From Thermococcus thermotolerans (GTDB lineage: Archaea > Methanobacteriota_B > Thermococci > Thermococcales > Thermococcaceae): a DNA stretch of 64,000 nucleotides. The notes beneath the pieces were generated by a model. That model ran no database searches, was not told the DNA's origin, and was given only the letters and a program-made list of their open reading frames with translations. Made by a program: the position numbers and the translations under genes. The first letter of the stretch is position 1. Every line of letters begins with the position of its first letter. Location of the stretch: positions 1,240,001 to 1,304,000 of the forward strand of contig NZ_CP102602.1 of NCBI RefSeq assembly GCF_024707485.1, in the 5' to 3' direction. Below are positions 51,912 to 64,000 of this stretch, piece after piece.

Positions 51912-51959
51912 GGTTAGCCGTAACTTGCATGAAGTTTGTAAACGTCGTTACGGCTAACC
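51912..51959 (-). ncRNA. Large hairpin at the tnpB 3' end, omega-RNA scaffold candidate
   Basis: GGTTAGCCGTAAC (51912-51924) pairs perfectly over 13 bp with GTTACGGCTAACC (51947-51959). It spans the tnpB stop codon. TnpB guide RNAs (reRNA/omega-RNA) are made from the tnpB 3' end and the element end, with a guide taken from flanking DNA, so this should be the scaffold stem. The guide would read left of about 51890. Confidence 0.65.
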
Positions 51960-53095
51960 TTCCCCACTCCCATCTTCATTGTGGAGCTTTCAGGGGGAAC
52001 GGAAACTCCCCACATCTTCAGGGCTCTCAAACGAATATTCCAACTCCCAACCACATCACGGTCGGCTTCAAAACCACAGTTTGAGCACTTCAAGACCCTG
52101 CCCCCATTCGGGCTTAGTTTCTCCCCACATACCGGGCACAGGGAGGAAGTATGAGCAGGATTCACGAAAACAATCCTAACACCCTTCAGCTTAGCCTTGT
52201 ATTCAATAATTGATTGAAGCTTCCTAAAACTCCAACGGTGAAGACGACCATTCATTTCAGCCGAATACCTGATTGAATCCCTGATTTCAGTCAAATCTTC
52301 AAGGGCAATTCCACCGTATTTTTCCGCCAATTCCACTATTTTGTTAGCAAGCTTGTGATAAAGGTCGTTAAGCCTGTTCCTCTCCCTCCGCCCGTATTTT
52401 TCAAGGAGTTCCTCCCTCTTCCTTCCAGCCCTGATTTTCCCCTGTATTCTCCGCCTCTTCACAAAGTAGCCCGTCCTAATCTCCCGCTCGTGAGTGATTA
52501 TTTGAACGAATTCCCCGTTTGGAAGACTGAGCGTTACGTTGTTCTCATTCAAATCAACTCCAACAAAAGCTTTCGGCTCGCTAACTTCAACCTCTTTCGA
52601 GAAAACAACGTTGAGAAAAGTTCCTTTCGGCGTTCTAACCAACCACGCCTGCCCAACCTTCCAGTCCCTGAATTTCTCATGGTATTTTGCAGGATAAAAC
52701 TCTAATTGAACCCTCCCGTCCGGAGTGGAGAGTTTTACAGTTCTATTCTCCAAGTCGAGTTTGAACAGGTGGTCGTCGAGCATTATGACGTCCCTCTTGA
52801 AAACTGGCCTGCCTTTTGCCTTCCCCTTCTTCTTCCGCTTCCTAAAGCTTTTGAAGATTGATGTAGCCATCTGGCAAGCCGTGTAAAGGTAATGACTCGG
52901 AAGCTCTGAATACTCATTACGAAGGCTCTTGTAGGTTTCCTTTTTGAGCCTGTAAAAGCTGGTTATGTTGTTCTCAAAAGCGTGAGTGATGAGGTAGTTC
53001 ACGATTTCCCGATAAGTTTGGAAAAGCTCTTCTAATCCCTCTGGAGTTTCCTTGAGTTTGAATTTGGCGGTGAGCTTAATCGTCTCTGAGGGCAT
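51914..53095 (-). CDS. tnpB: TnpB RNA-guided nuclease (IS605/IS607 type)
   Basis: 393 residues. The N-terminal helical/beta part has TAKFKLKETPEGLEELFQTYREIVNYL; the RuvC-like nuclease has Asp181 (FVGVDLNENN), Glu266 (IALEDLTEIRDS) and the Asp345/Asp347 region (FEADRDVVGSWNI). The zinc ribbon lies between (CPVCGEK...CSNCG, Cys320-Cys340). All are intact. TnpB is an omega-RNA-guided DNA endonuclease, ancestor of Cas12, that favours element retention. Confidence 0.95.
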   Translation of the reverse strand: MPSETIKLTAKFKLKETPEGLEELFQTYREIVNYLITHAFENNITSFYRLKKETYKSLRNEYSELPSHYLYTACQMATSIFKSFRKRKKKGKAKGRPVFKRDVIMLDDHLFKLDLENRTVKLSTPDGRVQLEFYPAKYHEKFRDWKVGQAWLVRTPKGTFLNVVFSKEVEVSEPKAFVGVDLNENNVTLSLPNGEFVQIITHEREIRTGYFVKRRRIQGKIRAGRKREELLEKYGRRERNRLNDLYHKLANKIVELAEKYGGIALEDLTEIRDSIRYSAEMNGRLHRWSFRKLQSIIEYKAKLKGVRIVFVNPAHTSSLCPVCGEKLSPNGGRVLKCSNCGFEADRDVVGSWNIRLRALKMWGVSVPPESSTMKMGVGKVSRNDVYKLHASYG

Positions 53096-53681
53096 TCTTT
53101 ACCGCCTCGACAAGGCGTTTTTTCCTGTGAGAACGCATACCATAAAGCTTTCCGGCGAAGGAGGTTACGATGGCTAACAAATCTTCAACAAGTTCTTTTT
53201 CTATGGCTTCCTCATCGTCGAAGATTACTTCAATCTCAACACCGTGTGAGTTGAAGTATTGTTCGAGGTATTTGAAGCCGAAGCGGGTGAGCCTGTCCCT
53301 GTAAGTTATGACAACTTTTCCAACTTCTCCGCTTTCGACGAGTTTGAAGAGCTGTTTTAACCCTCTCCTGTTCTCGTTCAGGCTGGAAGAAATGTCGGTG
53401 AGGATTTTGGCCACTTGGTAGCCTCTGGAGGAGCAGTAGTTCTTGAGGTATTCGATTTGTCTTTCTAAGTCTTCTTTCTGGTCTCGGCTTGAGACTCTGG
53501 CGTAAATGACGACTTTATCAGGGATTTTACCCTCAAGAATTCTCTTGATTTCGCTTTCAGGGACTCGGTATTCTCTCCCGATACGGTAAGCTTTAATCTC
53601 GCCGGATTTAATCTTCCTAATCAATGTTGGTTTGCTGATGCCTAAGAGTTGTGAGGCCTCCCCCGTCCGATAAAGCCTCAT
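53076..53681 (-). CDS. tnpA: IS607-type serine recombinase TnpA
   Basis: 201 residues. A MerR-like helix-turn-helix (MRLYRTGEASQLLGISKPTLIRKIKSGEIKAYRIGREYRVPESEI) precedes the serine recombinase domain, with the catalytic Ser near 64 (YARVSSRDQKEDLERQI) and VITYRDRLTRFGFKYLEQYF. The small size with N-terminal DNA-binding domain is diagnostic of IS607. ATG 53681 follows GAGTGGAG. Confidence 0.94.
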   Translation of the reverse strand: MRLYRTGEASQLLGISKPTLIRKIKSGEIKAYRIGREYRVPESEIKRILEGKIPDKVVIYARVSSRDQKEDLERQIEYLKNYCSSRGYQVAKILTDISSSLNENRRGLKQLFKLVESGEVGKVVITYRDRLTRFGFKYLEQYFNSHGVEIEVIFDDEEAIEKELVEDLLAIVTSFAGKLYGMRSHRKKRLVEAVKNALRDD

Positions 53682-53816
53682 ACTCCACTCTACCAAAATG
53701 AATTATGAAATGAAAACACTTAAACTTTACGCTTTTAACTATCTATGAAACAGCCCAGGACCTCTGGTATGTTGCAAGCTTTTAAGGGGAGCCAGCGGAA
53801 AAATAGAGAACGAAAA

Positions 53817-55085
53817 TCAGCCGATGGCCACCTGAACGGCCAGATCAGCCCTGACTATTCCGTAGCCATAGTATATGTCCCATCCAGGGTCCCCAAGGTC
53901 ATCTGCGGTGGAGTGGAGAATACCCCTGACAGTGCTGGTTCCAATATCGTCGAAGGTTCCGACCGGGAGAACCCTGCCGTACTTGTTGTAGTATGCAGCC
54001 TGTATGAGGGCAACAACACCGCTGACGTGTGGCGTTGCCATGCTCGTTCCACTAAGGGTTTCGTAGGTATCGTCCGGATAGGTGCTTAGAATGTCAACGC
54101 CTGGAGCACTAACTTCCGGCTGTCTGTTGCTCCAGGAAGCGATCTGATCGTTTACATCACTCGCACCAACGGCGATGACCTCAGGATATGCGGCGGGATA
54201 GCTGGGACTGGAAGCCCCTTCGTTGCCGCTCGCTGCCACTATAACCACACCGTAGTTGTATGCCTGGATTATCATATCGTGGAGATACTGGTCGTCCGTT
54301 GGGCCTCCAAGGGACATGCTTATAACTTCTGCGGCGTCGTCATCGGGGTCGCCGACGATTATCCCATCGCCGTCCTTGTCGAGAATTCCATCGGGGCCAA
54401 GGAGAGCCTGCTCGATTCCGATGGCTATATCGCTGTAGGAACCGCTCCCGCTTGCATCCAGAACCCTGATGGAGTATATTTCAACCCCGGGAGCAACGCC
54501 AACAACGCCGATGTCATTGTTGAGCGCGGCTATTGTCCCTATAACATGTGTCCCATGACCATTCTGGTCTTTACACTGGGCTGGATTTGTTGTAACCCTG
54601 CCCCGGAGAGTGCTAACACACCATGCTATATTACCAGCCAGGTCCGGATGGTCGTAGTCAACCCCAGTATCAAGAACGGCGACCTCAATAACACCTCCAG
54701 AGCCATCGGTTATGCCCCATACATCGGGGGCCCTGACTCTGCTGATTCCCCACGGAATCTGCTGGGAGGGCTGTCCACCTCCGAGCCAGGAGGGTGGCCC
54801 GACGAGTATCCTTGCCTTGTGGTCAAACTCTATCATTTTGACTCCCGGAAGCTTCTTGAGCCTTCCAACGGCTGTTGAAGGCACCTCCACTACTACCGCG
54901 TCTATCAGCTTAAACTGATAAACAACGTGGCCGCCTATTGTGGCAACGTCTGCCGTGTTGAAGTGTCCCCTGTCCACGTGCACTATCACTCTAATAAGTT
55001 CAGGCTTCTCTGCCGTCGCTGGAACCCCCAAAAGAGAAAGCACAATCAGGGCCACTAAAGCAATTGTCATATCCTTCCTGCTCAT
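53817..55085 (-). CDS. Subtilisin-like serine protease (Tk-subtilisin type)
   Basis: 422 residues: signal peptide (about 1-24), propeptide (about 25-93) and S8 catalytic domain. Catalytic residues are Asp139 ([14 protein letters not shown]), His177 (NGHGTHVIG) and Ser348 (SGTSMATPH), with oxyanion Asn288 (AASGNEG). The Asp-rich insert [19 protein letters not shown] (about 235-253) is the calcium-binding loop needed for folding in Tk-subtilisin, which has the same length. Secreted, hyperstable peptidase. GGGGGTG precedes the ATG. Confidence 0.96.
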
Positions 55086-55994: not shown

Positions 55995-56152
55995 GAAGGA
56001 AAAAGCGACGGCCAGCTTTTAAAGTTTTCGCAGATTGCCGAACTATTTTTCGACGATAAAATATCGTCCCATGAAAATTCCACACACCCGACCCATCACC
56101 TTTTTAAAAGGATTCCATGAGTTGAACCCAGAGAGAGATTTAGGTGAGGCTA

Positions 56153-57154
56153 ATGGCGATAACGTTCAAGTCTGACCCAAACATGCCCGATGAGATTGCG
56201 AGACTGTTTAAGAAGCAGCACTACGCCCTGGTGGGAAGGCACAGCTCGGTCAAGCTATGCCACTGGCTAAAGGAGAGCATAAAAAAAGGCAGGTTCTGCT
56301 ACAAGCAGAAGTTCTATGGCATCCACTCGCACCGGTGCCTGCAGATGACACCCGTTACAGCTTGGTGCAGCCACAACTGCATATTCTGCTGGCGCCCGAT
56401 GGAGGGCTTCCTTGGAACCGAGTTGCCTCAGCCTTGGGACGATCCAGCCTTCATCGTCGAGGAGAGCATAAAGGCCCAGAGGAAGCTCCTAGTAGGCTAC
56501 AAGGGCATGCCGGGCATAAACATGAAGAAGTTTGAGGAGGCGTGGAACCCGAAGCACGCCGCCATAAGCCTCTCCGGCGAGCCGATGCTCTACCCCTACA
56601 TGGGCGACCTGGTGGAGGAGTTCCACAAGCGTGGATTCACCACTTTCATAGTCACCAACGGCACCGTTCCGGAGAGGCTGGAGGAGATGATACGGGAGGA
56701 CAAGCTCCCGACCCAGCTCTACGTCTCTCTGACCGCCCCGGACATCGAGACCTACAAGGGCGTCAACGTTCCCATGGTGCCCGATGGATGGGACAAGATA
56801 AAGGAGTTCCTCAGACTTATGGGCGGCGCTGATACGAGGACGGTGGTCAGACTCACCCTCGTCAAGGGCGAGAACATGCACAACCCGGAGGGCTACGCGA
56901 AGCTGATAAAGCTGGCCAACCCGATGTTCATCGAGGCCAAGGCTTACATGTTCGTCGGCTTTTCGAGGAACAGGCTGACCATCAACAACATGCCCCGCCA
57001 CGAGGAGATACGGGCCTTCGCTGAGGAGCTCGTCAGGCACCTCCCAGGATACCACATCGAGGACGAGTACGAACCGAGCAGGGTCGTGCTCATCATGAGG
57101 GACGACGTTGATTCCCACGGCTCCGGCAGGGAAGGCAGGTTCATAGGACACTGA
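56153..57154 (+). CDS. taw1: TYW1-like radical SAM enzyme (wyosine biosynthesis)
   Basis: 333 residues. The N-terminus has LFKKQHYALVGRHSSVKLCHWLKES and the Cys residues for the extra cluster; the radical SAM motif is CSHNCIFCWRP (CxxxCxxC), followed by LSGEPMLYPYMGDLVEEFHKRGFTTFIVTNGT. Taw1 condenses pyruvate with N1-methylguanosine-37 of tRNA-Phe to make imidazopurine. ATG 56153 follows AGGTGAGG; a TATA box TTTTTAAAAGG lies near 56100. Confidence 0.94.
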   Translation: MAITFKSDPNMPDEIARLFKKQHYALVGRHSSVKLCHWLKESIKKGRFCYKQKFYGIHSHRCLQMTPVTAWCSHNCIFCWRPMEGFLGTELPQPWDDPAFIVEESIKAQRKLLVGYKGMPGINMKKFEEAWNPKHAAISLSGEPMLYPYMGDLVEEFHKRGFTTFIVTNGTVPERLEEMIREDKLPTQLYVSLTAPDIETYKGVNVPMVPDGWDKIKEFLRLMGGADTRTVVRLTLVKGENMHNPEGYAKLIKLANPMFIEAKAYMFVGFSRNRLTINNMPRHEEIRAFAEELVRHLPGYHIEDEYEPSRVVLIMRDDVDSHGSGREGRFIGH

Positions 57155-57228
57155 GTCCCCTCTTCTCCCCATTATGGAAAAAGTTTATTTATTCTGGCCG
57201 CTTAGAATGAGTTTAGGGGTGTAAGGTG

Positions 57229-59448
57229 ATGAAGAAGGTTCTGGCTCTAGTAATGATTGTTCTCATGCTGATTCCAGCCGTTAGCGCCGGAGCAATAGAC
57301 GGCTCCGCAAGGTTTCTCAAAGATGCCGCCAAATCCACCCAACAGACGAGGGAGATAAGTCTGGCCATAATGGCCCTCTCGGTGGGGGCCAGTGACCTGA
57401 ACTGGGACATAACCCCCGACCTCGTTACCCTTGTCAACAGCATGCTCAGCTATCAGAACCCGGACGGCGGATGGGGTCTCTATCCCGGGGAGACCAGCAA
57501 CGTGCTCGACACGGCCTATGCCGTCATAGCCCTCAAGAGGGCTTATCCGCACCTCAAGACCATGGAGAGACTGGAGATAAAATCAGCCCTCAACCGCGGC
57601 CTTTCATACCTCCTCTCTGCCGAAAACAAGGCGGGTTGGGGATACGTGCCCGGAACACCGAGCTCCTGCTATCCGACGTTGTTGGCTATCTGGGCCTTAG
57701 GAGAAAACGGATACAGCTACAACAGCAGGGTAGTCAGAAACGCGGTTGAGTACGTGGAAAACGCCACCTGCGAGATCCCGGAGTACGAGGCACTCGCCCT
57801 CAGGCTCATAGCCTACCACAGCATAGGCTACCAGGTATCCAACGAGACGTTGGAGACCGTAAAGGAGCTCCTCCTCAACGAGGACAGCCTGAAGATGAAG
57901 GAGCGTGCCATGCTCACGTACGCCCTTGTCCTGTACACTCCCGTGGATTTTGACACCGCGAGAATACTAATCAAACTCGAATCATACGGCAAAAGCACAA
58001 ACGACCTCGTGTACTGGATGAACACCCCTGACCTGTTCTCATCAACGGAGCTCATAGCCACCACCTCCTACGCCCTCATGGCCCTTTCAACCACCTTCGA
58101 ACTGCCCCCTGCAAAGGAGGTCAAGAACCCCTACGAGATGCCGTGTCAGGAGCTCAAAAACATGCAGAACCCCGACGGCGGATGGGGCCTCGGACTCAAC
58201 AAGCCCTCTGACGAAAAGGCCACCTATTATGCACTGACTGCGATTCAGGCGTGCTATCCTGAGAAGGAGAGCATAGAGAAGGCCCTCGCGTGGACAAGGG
58301 AGGCATTTAAGAACGACGCGGCCTGGATGGAGAAGAACCGCAGGATGTCCGTCGGATACTACTATGCCCTTAAAACGCTTATCATGTACAGCAACATAAC
58401 CGCCGAGGAGAAAGCCCAGGCGGAGGAACTGATACGGAGTGTCCAGCTCGACTACGGCCTCTGGGGCAACACTGTACTTGGGCCGCAACCCTATGAGACC
58501 TCCCTGGCAATCAAGGCCCTCCGTGAGCTCGGGGTTCCTGCAAACGATGCCATTATCCAGAAGGCAAAGGACTGGCTCCTGAGCATAAGCAACGGTGGGT
58601 GGGGGACATACGTAACCACCGAGTACTACTCCTACATGCTCAAACCGGACGTACTGACGACCATAACCGTCCTGGAGGCCCTGGAGGGAATAGCCACCCC
58701 CGAAGAGCTTAAGCCCCACATCGAGTGGCTTATCGATCAGAGACTCGATGGTGGCTGGCCGTACTGGAAGACTTACTACGTCTGGGAAAAGAACAGGGAA
58801 TTTCCCGGAACCCCGACAGTGGAACTAACGGTAAGGGCGACAGACCTCCTCATCGGCTACGGTTACAACTACACCAACGAGACCCTGGACTTCGTCATGA
58901 ACGCTAGAGACTCCAGTGCCATAGACAAAAAGACGATAGAAGTCGCCAGTGCAATAAACTACCTCTCACGCTTCCAGTACGTTCCCCCCGTGAGCCTCTA
59001 CGACATAAAGGACGCCCTTGACAGCGATGTGTTTGGAATAATAGCGCCCGGCATGGACAACGAGAGCATCGGGGAGATAATAAATACCCTCAACGACCTC
59101 TTCAGCGGCGGCTTTATCCAGCTCAACACGACCTCGATTGGCGAGGACAGCTACATAGTTATGGCGAACTTCGGGGACTACCAGCTCAGACCGTACAACC
59201 CATACCTGAAGTTCTACGTGGAGGAAGGAACCGTAACCGTCGGAAACATCACCGTACCCACCAACAAAGCTGTCGTCCTTATTCCGGGCAAGACACCCAA
59301 GGGAGTCGTCCTCTTTGTGCTCTACGAACCGGAGAACGCCGAAATTGCTAAAGAAATATTCACCACCGGTTTCATCAGATACATAAGAGGGGACGCGATG
59401 GTCCTCCTCATCGAGAACGGAAGGGTGAGGGTAATAGTGGTGGGGTGA
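57229..59448 (+). CDS. Secreted alpha/alpha-toroid (prenyltransferase-like repeat) protein
   Basis: 739 residues. A signal peptide (KKVLALVMIVLMLIPAVSA) is followed by about ten helix pairs with QW-like motifs: QNPDGGWGLYPGE (about 84), AGWGYVPGT, QNPDGGWGLGLNK (about 312), NGGWGTYV and DGGWPYWKT. This is the squalene-cyclase/prenyltransferase barrel fold, without the DxDD catalytic motif. The C-terminal 170 residues are beta rich. It is extracellular, so a binding role is more likely than cyclisation. It ends seven bases before the CetZ gene. Confidence 0.8.
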   Translation: MKKVLALVMIVLMLIPAVSAGAIDGSARFLKDAAKSTQQTREISLAIMALSVGASDLNWDITPDLVTLVNSMLSYQNPDGGWGLYPGETSNVLDTAYAVIALKRAYPHLKTMERLEIKSALNRGLSYLLSAENKAGWGYVPGTPSSCYPTLLAIWALGENGYSYNSRVVRNAVEYVENATCEIPEYEALALRLIAYHSIGYQVSNETLETVKELLLNEDSLKMKERAMLTYALVLYTPVDFDTARILIKLESYGKSTNDLVYWMNTPDLFSSTELIATTSYALMALSTTFELPPAKEVKNPYEMPCQELKNMQNPDGGWGLGLNKPSDEKATYYALTAIQACYPEKESIEKALAWTREAFKNDAAWMEKNRRMSVGYYYALKTLIMYSNITAEEKAQAEELIRSVQLDYGLWGNTVLGPQPYETSLAIKALRELGVPANDAIIQKAKDWLLSISNGGWGTYVTTEYYSYMLKPDVLTTITVLEALEGIATPEELKPHIEWLIDQRLDGGWPYWKTYYVWEKNREFPGTPTVELTVRATDLLIGYGYNYTNETLDFVMNARDSSAIDKKTIEVASAINYLSRFQYVPPVSLYDIKDALDSDVFGIIAPGMDNESIGEIINTLNDLFSGGFIQLNTTSIGEDSYIVMANFGDYQLRPYNPYLKFYVEEGTVTVGNITVPTNKAVVLIPGKTPKGVVLFVLYEPENAEIAKEIFTTGFIRYIRGDAMVLLIENGRVRVIVVG

Positions 59449-59455
59449 TTAAGAG

Positions 59456-60628
59456 GTGAGGGCTCTAATCATCGGGGTCGGCCAGTGCGGGACGAAGATA
59501 GCCGACCTCTTCGCTCTGGTTGATTTCGAGGCTCTGGCCATAAACACATCGAAGGGAGACTTGGATTACCTCAAGCACGTCCCCCATGAGCGGAGGATAC
59601 TGATAGGCGAGAGCCTGACCGGCGGCAAGGGGGTCAACGCGAACCCGGTACTCGGCAGGGAGGCCATGAAGCGCGACCTACCACTGGTCATGCGCAAGAT
59701 AGGTTCAATAATAGGCTACGAGGACGTCGATATATTCTTTCTGACCTTCGGTTTCGGAGGCGGAACGGGCGCCGGAGGAACGCCCGTCCTGGCCGAGGCG
59801 CTTAAAGAGGAGTACCCAGATTCCCTTGTGGTGGCGATAGGAGCGCTTCCCCTCAAGGAGGAGGGCATAAGACCAACCATAAACGCCGCAATAACCATCG
59901 ATAAGCTCTCCAAGATCGCCGATTCCATAATAGCCATAGACAACAACAAGCTCAAGGAGGGTGGCGATGACATAACGCGCGCCTACGAGAGGATAAACTA
60001 CACCATCGTTGAAAGGATAGCATCGCTCTTAGCCCTGGTTGACGTCCCCGGCGAACAGACCCTCGATGCAAGCGACTTGAAATTTGTTCTGAAGGCCTTC
60101 GGAAGCTTTGCAACCGTTGGCTATGCCAAAGCCGAGGCGAACAAAGTCAAAAGCCTCTCCAGGTTAATAATAAAGTCCTTCGAGAGCGAGGGCCTGTACC
60201 TTGAGGCGAACATTGAGTCAGCACTCTATGGATTGGTTGCCATTCACGGGCCGCCGGAGGTTCTGAAGGCGGCGGAGATCTTTGAGGCCCTGGATTACCT
60301 CACAAACAAGATAAGAGGCAAGCAGATATTCCGCGGCTTCTATCCAGACCCGCGCGAGAGGGAAGTAGAAGTCGTTACGCTCCTCAGCGGCATCTATGAG
60401 AGCAGGAGCATAAAGGACATAATCATCACCGCAAAGAGGTACGCCCAGTCATTCATGGAAGCGAAGGAGGAAGCGGAAACCAAAAAGAAGGAGCTCCTAA
60501 GCGGCCTGCCCGACTTCGACGACGTGTACGCCAAGGGGGGAAGTGAGCTCAAGGAGATATCCCAGGACGGGGAGTATCCGGACATAGAGGGGATAAGCAG
60601 GAAACTCAGGAGGGAGAAGGATGACTGA
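59456..60628 (+). CDS. CetZ/tubulin-FtsZ superfamily GTPase
   Basis: 390 residues. GTP-binding signature FGFGGGTGAGGTPVL near residues 97-111, IGVGQCGTKIADLF at the N-terminus and NNKLKEGGDDITRAYERINYTI in the middle, all of the CetZ branch. The C-terminal extension is charged and ends SRKLRREKDD. CetZ proteins control cell shape in haloarchaea; those of Thermococcales are uncharacterised. GTG start; eight-base overlap with the next gene. Confidence 0.92.
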   Translation: MRALIIGVGQCGTKIADLFALVDFEALAINTSKGDLDYLKHVPHERRILIGESLTGGKGVNANPVLGREAMKRDLPLVMRKIGSIIGYEDVDIFFLTFGFGGGTGAGGTPVLAEALKEEYPDSLVVAIGALPLKEEGIRPTINAAITIDKLSKIADSIIAIDNNKLKEGGDDITRAYERINYTIVERIASLLALVDVPGEQTLDASDLKFVLKAFGSFATVGYAKAEANKVKSLSRLIIKSFESEGLYLEANIESALYGLVAIHGPPEVLKAAEIFEALDYLTNKIRGKQIFRGFYPDPREREVEVVTLLSGIYESRSIKDIIITAKRYAQSFMEAKEEAETKKKELLSGLPDFDDVYAKGGSELKEISQDGEYPDIEGISRKLRREKDD

Positions 60629-61250
60629 ACCCATCAGGGACTCGGTAGAGGTCGCCCTGGAACTGGACGAGAAGGAGGTCTATTCCCACATAGCCCACGA
60701 GAGTGCCGAGGACATCATCAGGATTATATCCTCCCTCGATGCGGAGAGGGCAAAGCTCCACGGGGAGGTAATCTACTACAAGGACGACTGGGACGACCTC
60801 ATCAGGGAGCGGATAGCGAAGGGAAAGCGCCATACCGCATTTGATTTTTACAACCCTGCCCTGCTGGACATCTGGGAGCAGAAGGTCAAGGAGATCAAGG
60901 AGGCAAAGAAGAGGGAAAAGATGAGCTACGCCGCAATAGGTGCGCTTATTGCTGCCACCGTGGCTGCTACGGTATTCTTAGGCCAGCCCTATATCGTACT
61001 GGGACTTGCAGTGCTCCCCACGGTTCTTCTGATAAGGGATTCCACCCGGGAAAAGCTTGATTTAATTTACTACGAGCTAACGCAGTTCTTTATTGATGAA
61101 CTGAAAGGGCTCATTGAAAAGCACTCCCTTCCGCCGGAGAGGTATAAGTTCAAAATATTCAGCGGTGATTACTTCGGTGTCAGGACTATAAAGGTCGGAA
61201 CGGGTCTTTTCGCCGTCGTAAACGCCGAAAAGCCCGAGAGTAACGATTAA
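60621..61250 (+). CDS. CetZ-linked membrane protein
   Basis: 209 residues. A cytosolic N-terminal part (about 1-95) is rich in charged helices (IREAAKK-type segment VKEIKEAKKREKMSY). Two adjacent helices (about 98-140; AAIGALIAATVAATVFLGQPYIVLGLAVLPTVLLI) and a C-terminal cytosolic alpha/beta part (DLIYYELTQFFIDELKGLIEKHSLPPERYKFKIFSGDYFG) follow. It overlaps the CetZ gene, suggesting a membrane partner or anchor. No family recognised. Confidence 0.75.
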   Translation: MTEPIRDSVEVALELDEKEVYSHIAHESAEDIIRIISSLDAERAKLHGEVIYYKDDWDDLIRERIAKGKRHTAFDFYNPALLDIWEQKVKEIKEAKKREKMSYAAIGALIAATVAATVFLGQPYIVLGLAVLPTVLLIRDSTREKLDLIYYELTQFFIDELKGLIEKHSLPPERYKFKIFSGDYFGVRTIKVGTGLFAVVNAEKPESND

Positions 61251-61288
61251 ATAGATGTTCGGAGATATACCATACTGAGGGGAGAAAT

Positions 61289-61921
61289 ATGGTGATAAAA
61301 AAGCGCGGTCAGGTCTCACTTGAGTTCATGCTGATCTTCGGAATGATGCTCATCCTCCTGCTGTACTCGGTAAACAACATAACCTTCAGGGAGGGCTCCA
61401 CATCAACCGAGACCCTGCGCATCCAGATAAGCCTCGAAGAGAAGAACCTCGCCAACGCGATATCAAATACCATCTCCCAGGTTTACGCCCAGGGTCCTGG
61501 AGCAAAGTCGACCACCTACGTGAGGATCACGTATCTGCGAGACCCGGATATGCTCCTGAAAGGCCTGGGTGTGAACAGCCCCAAGGTCTTCATAACATAC
61601 GGAAACTACAGCACCGAAGGAAACGGTACGTACGTTACCGTCGTGGGGACCAATGTTGATGCTGTCCTCAGTGGCGGAGATAAAAACGTATTCTGGAGCC
61701 GTGCCATGTACCAGGCCGTCCTTTACACCAGTCCTTCCGTGTGGTCTCCTTCAGGAAGTACCACGTTCAACGCAACCACAGTTTACGGCCTTGAGATCGA
61801 TCCAACCGACCTTCCCGGAACCCTTGAGATAGTCGTGGAGTGGAATCCCGACAATCCCAACTCATGGACATTTGATTCAGTGGCCGGTGAGCTCCACATA
61901 AACATAAACCCCGGTGGCTGA
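61289..61921 (+). CDS. Type IV pilin-like protein, class III signal (1)
   Basis: 210 residues. KKRG then QVSLEFMLIFGMMLILLLYS is a class III signal (cleavage before Gln, QxSxE motif) followed by the pilin hydrophobic helix. The remainder is a beta-rich domain with several Asn-X-Ser/Thr sequons (NYSTEGNGTYVT, FNATTVYG). A prepilin peptidase would cleave it. It begins 38 bases after the CetZ partner; GGGGAGA precedes it. Confidence 0.85.
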   Translation: MVIKKRGQVSLEFMLIFGMMLILLLYSVNNITFREGSTSTETLRIQISLEEKNLANAISNTISQVYAQGPGAKSTTYVRITYLRDPDMLLKGLGVNSPKVFITYGNYSTEGNGTYVTVVGTNVDAVLSGGDKNVFWSRAMYQAVLYTSPSVWSPSGSTTFNATTVYGLEIDPTDLPGTLEIVVEWNPDNPNSWTFDSVAGELHININPGG

Positions 61922-61923
61922 AG

Positions 61924-62364
61924 ATGAAGCGGGGACAGATTAGCCTTGACTTCCTCTTTGCAGTGACCCTGATAACCATCACAATGCTCAACCTAGTCTA
62001 TATTGCCGACAGCGAGAGAGCCCATTCCGAAACCTTTGACACCATCGCAAAGCTGAAGGCATTCTCCATCGATATCAGGGACTCTGTTGTCAAGGTCTAC
62101 ACCGCCGGAGAGGGATTTACCGTGAGGAAGGAACTCCCGATAAACCTGGATGCAGGGGACAGGGTAACCGTCAGTCTTGTTGCCCCGGATAGCGTCGTTG
62201 TTAACGCCACAATAGGGGGGAGGGGATACCGGGTGATCCAGAAGAGCCCAGTACCGATATACGAGAACACCTCTGTGACCCTTACAGCGACGGATAAGGA
62301 CTTTGGAATAGTGGCAACGTACAACGAAACGGAGGGGAGGCTGGATGTCACCCTCTCGCCGTAA
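61924..62364 (+). CDS. Type IV pilin-like protein, class III signal (2)
   Basis: 146 residues. MKRG then QISLDFLFAVTLITITMLNLVYIA gives a short class III signal and hydrophobic helix (Asp at the Glu-5 position). A compact beta domain follows. Two bases separate it from gene 1 and it overlaps gene 3 by 20 bases, so the set is one operon. Probably a minor pilin. Confidence 0.82.
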   Translation: MKRGQISLDFLFAVTLITITMLNLVYIADSERAHSETFDTIAKLKAFSIDIRDSVVKVYTAGEGFTVRKELPINLDAGDRVTVSLVAPDSVVVNATIGGRGYRVIQKSPVPIYENTSVTLTATDKDFGIVATYNETEGRLDVTLSP

Positions 62365-62818
62365 GGCACAGACGGCCATAGAGGTTCTATTCATAACAGC
62401 AATAATTCTCGCAGGGATCCTTCTGGTTGTTCCCACGTATCTGGACGAGAACACAGCTTCTTCGATAATATCCTACGTTAGAGGTTCCGCCTCAGATGCA
62501 TGCGCCTACCTGAATACTGGAGTCATTATTAACGAGAGCATCTACACTCCCCTTAACGCAATAATAAACGCCAGTAACTACACGTACAGGGCGTTTCAGC
62601 TCGCAGGGGTGCGCACGGCAGAGATTAACGGCACGATACAGGTCAACGTCACGATAACCTATACTGGAGCCGGGCTTCCTGAAAGCACCGTTGAGGCAAA
62701 CATAAAACAGTACATCGAGGATGACCTGACATCCAAGACCAATGTGGTCAAACAGGATGGAAAGCTCTACCTCGGTGGGAGAGAGATTGAGATAAACGTG
62801 GATGTGGTGAGAGTATGA
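62345..62818 (+). CDS. Type IV pilin-like protein, class III signal (3)
   Basis: 157 residues. SPSRRKA then QTAIEVLFITAIILAGILLVVPTYL: Gln+1 and Glu+4/5 with a hydrophobic helix. The remaining domain is beta rich with many Asn-X-Thr sites (NASNYTYRAF, NGTIQVNVTITYTGAG). Its TGA overlaps the ATG of the next gene (ATGA). Confidence 0.82.
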   Translation: MSPSRRKAQTAIEVLFITAIILAGILLVVPTYLDENTASSIISYVRGSASDACAYLNTGVIINESIYTPLNAIINASNYTYRAFQLAGVRTAEINGTIQVNVTITYTGAGLPESTVEANIKQYIEDDLTSKTNVVKQDGKLYLGGREIEINVDVVRV

Positions 62819-64000
62819 GGAGAGGCCAGCTTCTCTCGCTCGATGCGATGCTGTCGATGGTCATAATAATCCTGCTACTTGGCACTATCACCACCACCTC
62901 AAGCGCCCTGAAGGGAGAGATAACAACCGTACTTGGCTGGTACGAAAGAGCTAATGTTGGAGATAATATGCTGGACATACTCGTCAAAAACCCAGGAACT
63001 CCAAACAACTGGCAGACCGACCCCAGCAATCTGGCTTTCATCGGGCTGGAGAACAGCCAGTATCCCACAACCATAGACTATTCAAAGATAGAAGCCCTAA
63101 GTGAGGCCGTTGCCAACGACAACCCCACAGTACGGGCGTTGTTGGCAAACATTAGCATGGGAAAGGACTTCACCCTAGGGTTCTACCTCACAAGGGTCGA
63201 GATCGAGGGGAACGTAACAGTCATACCCCCCCAAACCGAAGGCTCTGTGGACATTCCATCCGGGGGTCATCTCTCTGTTACTCCCCGCACTGGATACGCA
63301 TACGGGCTGGGGCTCATCGCTGAGTGGATAAGCCCCGAGAGGAGCGACGCTCCCGGTGTGGGGAACATAGCAAACGTTACAAATGTAACTGCTGGAGAAA
63401 GCTTCGTCTTCAAGCTCGCGGAGGACGGGAGTGTCAGGCTTGATCTCGTCGGTCCAGGAAATCAAGGTGGCCCTGTGAACTACAACATACCAGCGGGTTC
63501 AATCGTCCACATAGACGTTGAGACCGGGTACCTTCTTATAGGATGGAACAGGCTCGCAGACGGCACCTACGAGCTCTGGATTCCCCTGCACCGTCTGGGA
63601 CAGCAGATATGGACCACCTGGACGGGAACAGTATGGTGGGGACAGGGGGGAACCGTCTCCTCAACAAACCTGACGATCAGGTACGTCTACGCAACCAGGG
63701 TTGTGAACGCAGACTACAACATAACTATGATAAACGGCACTTTCGTGAGTGACCCGGCAACGATAACGGCCTCCAGGGAGCGTTCACCGTGGGTAACCTA
63801 CACCGAGAGGAGAATCCCACTGACAAAGATGGTCTACAATCGGAGCTACACCATCACCACCGATTCTCTCCCAGCTGAACTCTACGTTGGGACAATATAC
63901 ACTCCAATCCCCGACTACATGGCGCTCAAAGTTGCATTCAACGGCACCGGTCACGTTGTTGCCGTGGCGTGGATGAGGGGCACCAACATATCTGGATACT
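62815..64000 (+). CDS. Large pilin-like surface protein (partial)
   Basis: More than 395 residues, cut by the window end. MRRG then QLLSLDAMLSMVIIILLLGTITTTSSAL is again a class III-like signal with a hydrophobic helix. The large outer domain is rich in Asn-X-Ser/Thr and in strands and has a Trp-rich patch (QQIWTTWTGTVWWGQGG). As the fourth member of this operon and much larger, it could be a tip adhesin. Confidence 0.78.
   Translation, partial: MRRGQLLSLDAMLSMVIIILLLGTITTTSSALKGEITTVLGWYERANVGDNMLDILVKNPGTPNNWQTDPSNLAFIGLENSQYPTTIDYSKIEALSEAVANDNPTVRALLANISMGKDFTLGFYLTRVEIEGNVTVIPPQTEGSVDIPSGGHLSVTPRTGYAYGLGLIAEWISPERSDAPGVGNIANVTNVTAGESFVFKLAEDGSVRLDLVGPGNQGGPVNYNIPAGSIVHIDVETGYLLIGWNRLADGTYELWIPLHRLGQQIWTTWTGTVWWGQGGTVSSTNLTIRYVYATRVVNADYNITMINGTFVSDPATITASRERSPWVTYTERRIPLTKMVYNRSYTITTDSLPAELYVGTIYTPIPDYMALKVAFNGTGHVVAVAWMRGTNISGY

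Follow-up and report, generated by a model that had tools for sequence, protein, structure and literature searches.

The 64,000-nucleotide window analyzed here (G000 C1:1240001-1304000) belongs to a Thermococcus-type genome, placed within Thermococcales by its relatives, and carries on its forward strand a cluster in which a secreted alpha-toroid protein (hereafter TOR), the tubulin-superfamily GTPase CetZ, and a two-helix membrane protein (hereafter MP) lie one after the other, directly before a series of pilin-like genes (table 1). The open reading frame coordinates agree with the initial annotation, a note made from the DNA letters alone, as to the positions of the three genes and the overlap between the last two, which amounts to exactly 8 bases (60621-60628); TOR starts at a GTG at 57226, with an ATG at 57229 as an alternative. 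The identification of CetZ is likewise borne out, with matches above cut-off to PF00091 (108.4 bits) and to the CetZ_C domain PF21011 (59.8 bits), the score against the FtsZ equivalog model (121 bits) being far under the cut-off of 295. Its best solved relatives are 4b46, 4b45, and 3zid, which carry the names FtsZ or tubulin/FtsZ GTPase in the PDB and which we take to be CetZ2, CetZ1, and the Methanosaeta CetZ, respectively.

Table 1. Genes and sequence elements of the TOR–CetZ–MP–pilin cluster, in window coordinates.
Feature	Position	Strand	Remarks
TYW1	56144-57154	+	TIGR03972 over cut-off
BRE/TATA-like promoter element GGAAAAAGTTTATTTATT	57176..57193	+	putative; would serve the TOR–CetZ–MP unit
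TOR	57226-59448	+	secreted double alpha-toroid protein, squalene-cyclase-like, with C-terminal beta domain
CetZ	59456-60628	+	tubulin-superfamily GTPase; PF00091 and PF21011
CetZ C-terminal peptide LLSGLPDFDDVY, residues 347-358	codons 60494..60529	+	proposed docking peptide
MP	60621-61250	+	two-helix hairpin membrane protein; proposed CetZ membrane anchor
MP N-terminal domain, predicted cytoplasmic, residues 1-102	60621..60926	+	best-conserved part of MP
MP transmembrane hairpin, residues 103-138	60927..61034	+	predicted external turn of ~5 residues; hydropathy
TATA-like box TTAAATA	61247..61253	+	overlaps MP stop codon; probable separate pilin promoter
Pilin-like protein 1	61289..61921	+	PF04021; class III signal peptide; conserved position
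Pilin-like protein 2	61924..62364	+	class III-type N-terminus by eye; conserved position
Pilin-like protein 3	62345..62818	+	weak PF04021; conserved position
Pilin-like protein 4, 495 aa	62815..64000, extends to ~64302 beyond window	+	class III signal peptide by eye

The conservation of this arrangement was followed across Thermococcales, in 75 fetched loci for the counts given per locus and in 94 genomes for those given per genome. The order TOR–CetZ–MP–pilin is kept in nearly all 75 loci, TOR being missing in two, and CetZ adjoins MP in every one of them, which establishes the arrangement as more than chance. An overlap between the two is seen in 73/75 loci; the gap from TOR to CetZ measures 4-26 bases (73 loci), and that from MP to the first pilin 5-101 bases. 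CetZ is present in 89 of the 94 genomes and MP in the same 89, the five genomes without either gene (G016, G033, G088, G089, and G112) all being draft assemblies. The pairing of CetZ with a membrane protein, whose lack of conservation had been named beforehand as grounds for refutation, is thus found in every CetZ-bearing genome. The three genes might alternatively be independent passengers held together by the slow rearrangement of Thermococcales genomes, as the loss or exchange of TOR alone could suggest; this appears improbable to us, because Pyrococcus-like loci in which TYW1 is unmatched in the fetched stretch (L077, L078, L079, L085, L086, and L103) nevertheless retain TOR–CetZ–MP–pilins, and because the short TOR–CetZ gaps and the CetZ–MP overlaps suggest a single transcript.

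The promoter-like elements are consistent with such a transcript. In 65/73 loci TOR is preceded by a TATA-like box, at a median of -43 from the start (shuffles expect 2.3), and in 72/74 loci a TTAAATA box stands 30-46 bases ahead of where the first pilin starts, when shuffles expect 1.6 and the background in coding windows is 5/1763. Because separate TATA-like boxes precede TOR and the first pilin, TOR, CetZ, and MP probably form one transcription unit and the pilins a second one. The pilin genes lie directly downstream of MP, as annotated, and are recognizable by class III signal peptides and PF04021, with the correction that they possess a conserved TATA-like element of their own.

Hydropathy confirms MP as a two-helix membrane protein, with one hydrophobic hairpin and lysine/arginine-rich flanks on either side. 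Given these two features, we infer that both domains of MP are in the cytoplasm and that only about 5 residues reach the outside, so that MP could tether CetZ to the membrane or a pilus platform and would hardly touch TOR. The AlphaFold2 model (pLDDT 78.9, pTM 0.74) contains long helices at residues 8-46, 79-120, and 132-168. Conservation is concentrated in the N-terminal domain, which carries the stretch RxRxxKGKRHTxFDFYNPxLLDIWE and in which 37 positions are invariant and the mean modal frequency is 0.82; the corresponding frequency is 0.64 for the C-terminal domain and 0.41-0.53 for the hairpin. Over residues 61-80, invariance coincides with a low confidence of the model, a pattern to be expected, if not proved, of a docking surface that folds on its partner. 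MP matched no family in Pfam, NCBIfam, or PHROGs, no sequence relative in the PDB, and no fold in Foldseek at E <= 0.001; a function based on fold was therefore discarded, the Vipp1/PspA-like helices that appear near E 2 not being evidence.

A candidate for a binding site on the CetZ side is a C-terminal peptide, LLxGLPDF[DE]D[IVL]Y, that is present in the 75/75 CetZs of the fetched loci. It is followed by a few to ~30 residues that also vary in sequence, and it was not found at the C-termini of the two other tubulin-family (FtsZ-type) proteins of the genome. The tail thereby resembles, by analogy with FtsZ, a C-terminal peptide that binds a partner.

We propose, with a probability of roughly 0.45, that MP is a dedicated membrane anchor for CetZ that organizes a pilus-associated patch of the membrane, the anchoring being supported by the co-occurrence of the two proteins, the overlap of their genes, and their matched conservation. 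CetZ is a tubulin-like GTPase of the cytoplasm, where it probably assembles into filaments; it would be anchored by MP, whose hairpin would sit in the membrane and leave both domains on the cytoplasmic side. In a charge-complementary docking analogous to that of the FtsZ C-terminal peptide on SepF, FtsA, or ZipA, the acidic CetZ peptide GLPDFDD-Y would be received by the basic N-terminal domain of MP (RxRxxKGKRHT...), both of them invariant. The membrane-anchored CetZ patch would then organize how the type IV pilus-like structure of the neighboring genes is assembled, with TOR, as a secreted nonenzymatic toroid, being a variable accessory exposed on the outside. The likeness to FtsZ and its anchors would lie in a filament of the tubulin superfamily, a short peptide conserved at its C-terminus, and a proposed membrane holder (PMC8178401, PMC8187382), the anchor of archaeal FtsZ being SepF (PMC8178401). 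The differences are that MP shows no detectable resemblance in sequence or fold to any solved anchor, SepF included, that it forms a transmembrane hairpin of two helices, and that its proposed partner is CetZ.

From the perspective of published knowledge, the core of the cluster (CetZ, the cyclase-like protein, and the pilins) is already described, and the MP pairing and its details are new here. Makarova 2016 (PMC4858521) reported CetZ (arCOG02202), a "squalene cyclase" (arCOG03396), and type IV pilins together in Thermococcales, the source cited in that paper for the Thermococcales CetZ/pilus locus being Szabo 2007, and Brown & Duggin 2023 (PMC9856176) found every Thermococcales cetZ region that they analyzed to be pilus-associated and proposed a scaffold role for CetZ. 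Our locus is the same in that the three components occupy one conserved region; it differs in features that the texts of these two papers do not single out, namely MP and the overlap of its gene with that of CetZ, the C-terminal peptide of CetZ, both promoter-like boxes, and the exchange of TOR. MP as a CetZ partner was not found in the literature searched, the supplements of both papers being outside the search, and a search combining squalene cyclase, Pyrococcus, and pili returned nothing. The annotation's statement that Thermococcales CetZ is unstudied holds for experiments, none of which were found in the literature searched, and not for the pilus link, which both papers state. In the same way, its suggestion that CetZ positions a surface structure through the membrane protein gains from the conservation of the pair; the link to the surface, by type IV pili, is not new, and MP would hardly reach TOR, which is itself dispensable.

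The pilus assignment itself follows from the class III-signal pilins, the first of which matches PF04021, and from an adhesin-like DUF2341 protein of 1124 aa, both characteristic of a clade 1 type IV pilus. Beyond the window, pilin-like protein 4 is followed by a 702-aa protein, this DUF2341 protein, a DUF2101 membrane protein, and an 86-aa open reading frame, after which convergent purine genes mark the downstream end. No secretion ATPase or TadC-like protein lies in the cluster before it runs into the purine genes. The sole clade-1-type motor genes of the genome, a T2SSE ATPase together with two T2SSF proteins, are ~290 kb away, and the other clear secretion ATPase sits in an archaellum-like cluster.

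Several of these observations weigh against the proposed anchor. Since a promoter-like box of their own precedes the pilins and the sole clade-1-type motor genes are ~290 kb off, the link between CetZ and the pilus rests on adjacency. As gene order is conserved in Thermococcales in general, co-occurrence within this one order is, taken alone, weak evidence. The Methanosaeta structure 3zid aligns across the same tail position and has a similar end (...NDLEEIY), so that part of the peptide may predate the pairing with MP, and another partner may lie behind the invariance of the CetZ tail. Finally, no family or fold match in Pfam, NCBIfam, the PDB, or Foldseek points to the function of MP.

The separate pilin box and the distance of the motor genes would also fit a CetZ–MP pair that serves cell shape or envelope organization in general, with the pilin genes as an old, functionally unlinked neighbor; the swap of pilin alleles without a change in CetZ–MP (L070/L116) and the action of Haloferax CetZ1 in cell shape (PMC8187382, PMC11621097) point the same way. 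We nonetheless regard this as rather unlikely, given that the adjacency of CetZ and pilins is maintained throughout the order, both in the loci examined here and according to earlier literature, and that a similar neighborhood recurs independently in Halobacteria, where CetZ2 adjoins a different pilus regulon (PMC9856176). Conversely, MP could be a structural, platform-type part of the pilus machine that is merely coregulated with CetZ, the CetZ tail binding, for instance, SepF or a MinD-like protein. Clade 1 pilus loci indeed hold at least two further membrane proteins (Makarova 2016; PMC4858521), and MinD controls the localization of CetZ1 in Haloferax (PMC11621097). Yet MP overlaps CetZ rather than the pilins and stands on the TOR–CetZ side of the pilin promoter-like box, and a search of 120 genomes of another archaeal phylum gave only 2 matches to MP, both weak and C-terminal, which is weak evidence; we judge this explanation quite improbable.

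Beyond Thermococcales, no full-length MP was found in the 21 other genomes of the class, all of which lack CetZ; 3 of these 21 have weak matches to the MP C-terminus only, none beside CetZ. The two-helix proteins at L168:6135-6836, L169:8640-9380, and L170:8679-9581, in genomes without CetZ, weakly resemble the C-terminal domain of MP and could, judging from this resemblance, be the older family from which MP was drawn. In another CetZ-rich phylum, no MP relatives were found beside CetZ, an empty answer that proves little there. A separate observation concerns CetZ itself: 21 of the 23 genomes searched in one archaeal phylum carry CetZ_C, and a recurrent operon of this phylum contains three genes of the tubulin superfamily in tandem, the second and the third being separated by a gene for a single-pass protein of ~272 aa with a signal peptide and a C-terminal helix (L203 7353-11551, L204 6673-11783, L205 7208-11351, L206 7554-11680, L207 1486-5653, and partly L209 and L212). 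CetZ outside Halobacteria has been listed only in Thermococcales, Archaeoglobales, Methanomicrobiales, and Methanosarcinales (PMC9856176).

The secreted component deserves separate treatment. TOR has an evident signal peptide and Pfam matches to the squalene-hopene cyclase/prenyltransferase toroid, and its model (pLDDT 88.5) is built of two toroid halves followed by a beta domain at the C-terminal end (residues ~600-740), with a fold that resembles squalene-hopene cyclase and, more weakly, thioester-containing (TED) domains. QNPDGGW-type repeats, as expected of an alpha-toroid with QW-type repeats, are present. TOR thus shares fold and repeats with squalene-hopene cyclases and with other alpha-toroid proteins such as the TED domains of alpha-2-macroglobulin and complement, and differs from them in being secreted, in lacking the DxDD acid motif, and in its extra C-terminal beta domain. 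Of the 73 TOR homologues, 69 lack the DxDD motif of class II cyclases, and the 4 D-x-D-D strings found lie at scattered late positions; we therefore ruled out an active cyclase. The prenyltransferase-fold protein of the initial annotation accordingly remains extracellular and without the catalytic motif, and is better named a squalene-cyclase-like double toroid with a C-terminal beta domain. Two genomes lack TOR and keep CetZ–MP behind a promoter-like box, a GAAAACTTTATGTATT box preceding CetZ in both loci; because of this absence, and because divergent alleles swap between near-identical neighbors, TOR is a dispensable accessory.

TOR is variable in sequence. The mean pairwise distance reaches 0.61 for TOR and 0.51-0.66 for the pilins, with 0.14 for CetZ and 0.40 for MP, and the divergence of TOR arises largely by replacement. 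Between the draft genomes of L136/L137, identity is 0.96-1.00 until 450 bases inside TOR, drops to 0.41-0.68 up to the end of TOR, and returns to 0.98 from CetZ onward; between the near-complete genomes of L069/L070, it passes from ~0.96 to 0.43-0.57 over TOR and back to ~0.9. Discrete divergent TOR alleles, cleanly replaced between conserved TYW1 and CetZ, were seen in these two pairs and in L126/L133, L081/L088, and L105/L108. When allele types were mapped onto a TYW1+CetZ tree, the ten TOR types required 14 changes (minimum 9); for the MP types the number varied with the threshold, being 22 (minimum 22) at one setting and 11 (minimum 10) at another. The pilin genes (window 61289-64000) also swap alleles, independently of TOR (L070/L116 and L096/L111): in L070/L116 the pilins alone change, and in L136/L137 and L069/L070 it is TOR that changes. 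The distances of TOR and pilins correlate at 0.27-0.60 after allowing for CetZ distance. We considered TOR and the pilins as one co-inherited matched set and rejected it, as their alleles are exchanged independently. By analogy, the clean replacement of TOR alleles recalls loci that viruses or other cells put under pressure. TOR allele exchange was not found in the literature searched, the supplements of PMC4858521 and PMC9856176 again being outside the search.

Elsewhere in the window, upstream of TYW1, lie an IS607-type element (51914-53696) made of a resolvase with a helix-turn-helix (HTH) and a TnpB-like protein (Cas12f1-like_TNB, OrfB_IS605), and, on the minus strand (53817-55085), a serine protease of the subtilase family (Peptidase_S8).

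To our knowledge, the route by which CetZ filaments reach the membrane is known in no archaeon. In this regard, a more far-reaching and rather doubtful possibility is that MP would be the first dedicated CetZ anchor, belonging to a new hairpin family whose conserved cytoplasmic domain docks the CetZ peptide, and that archaea would thereby possess a second tubulin system, membrane-tethered and FtsZ-independent, which would place a type IV pilus and present a swappable secreted toroid to the outside. That its alleles are exchanged marks TOR as a surface component on which diversifying pressure probably acts, with viruses or other cells as possible sources. Thermococcales include the genetically tractable T. 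kodakarensis, and the universal overlapping CetZ–MP pair, together with the short conserved peptide of CetZ, makes the question of how CetZ meets the membrane directly testable in this order.

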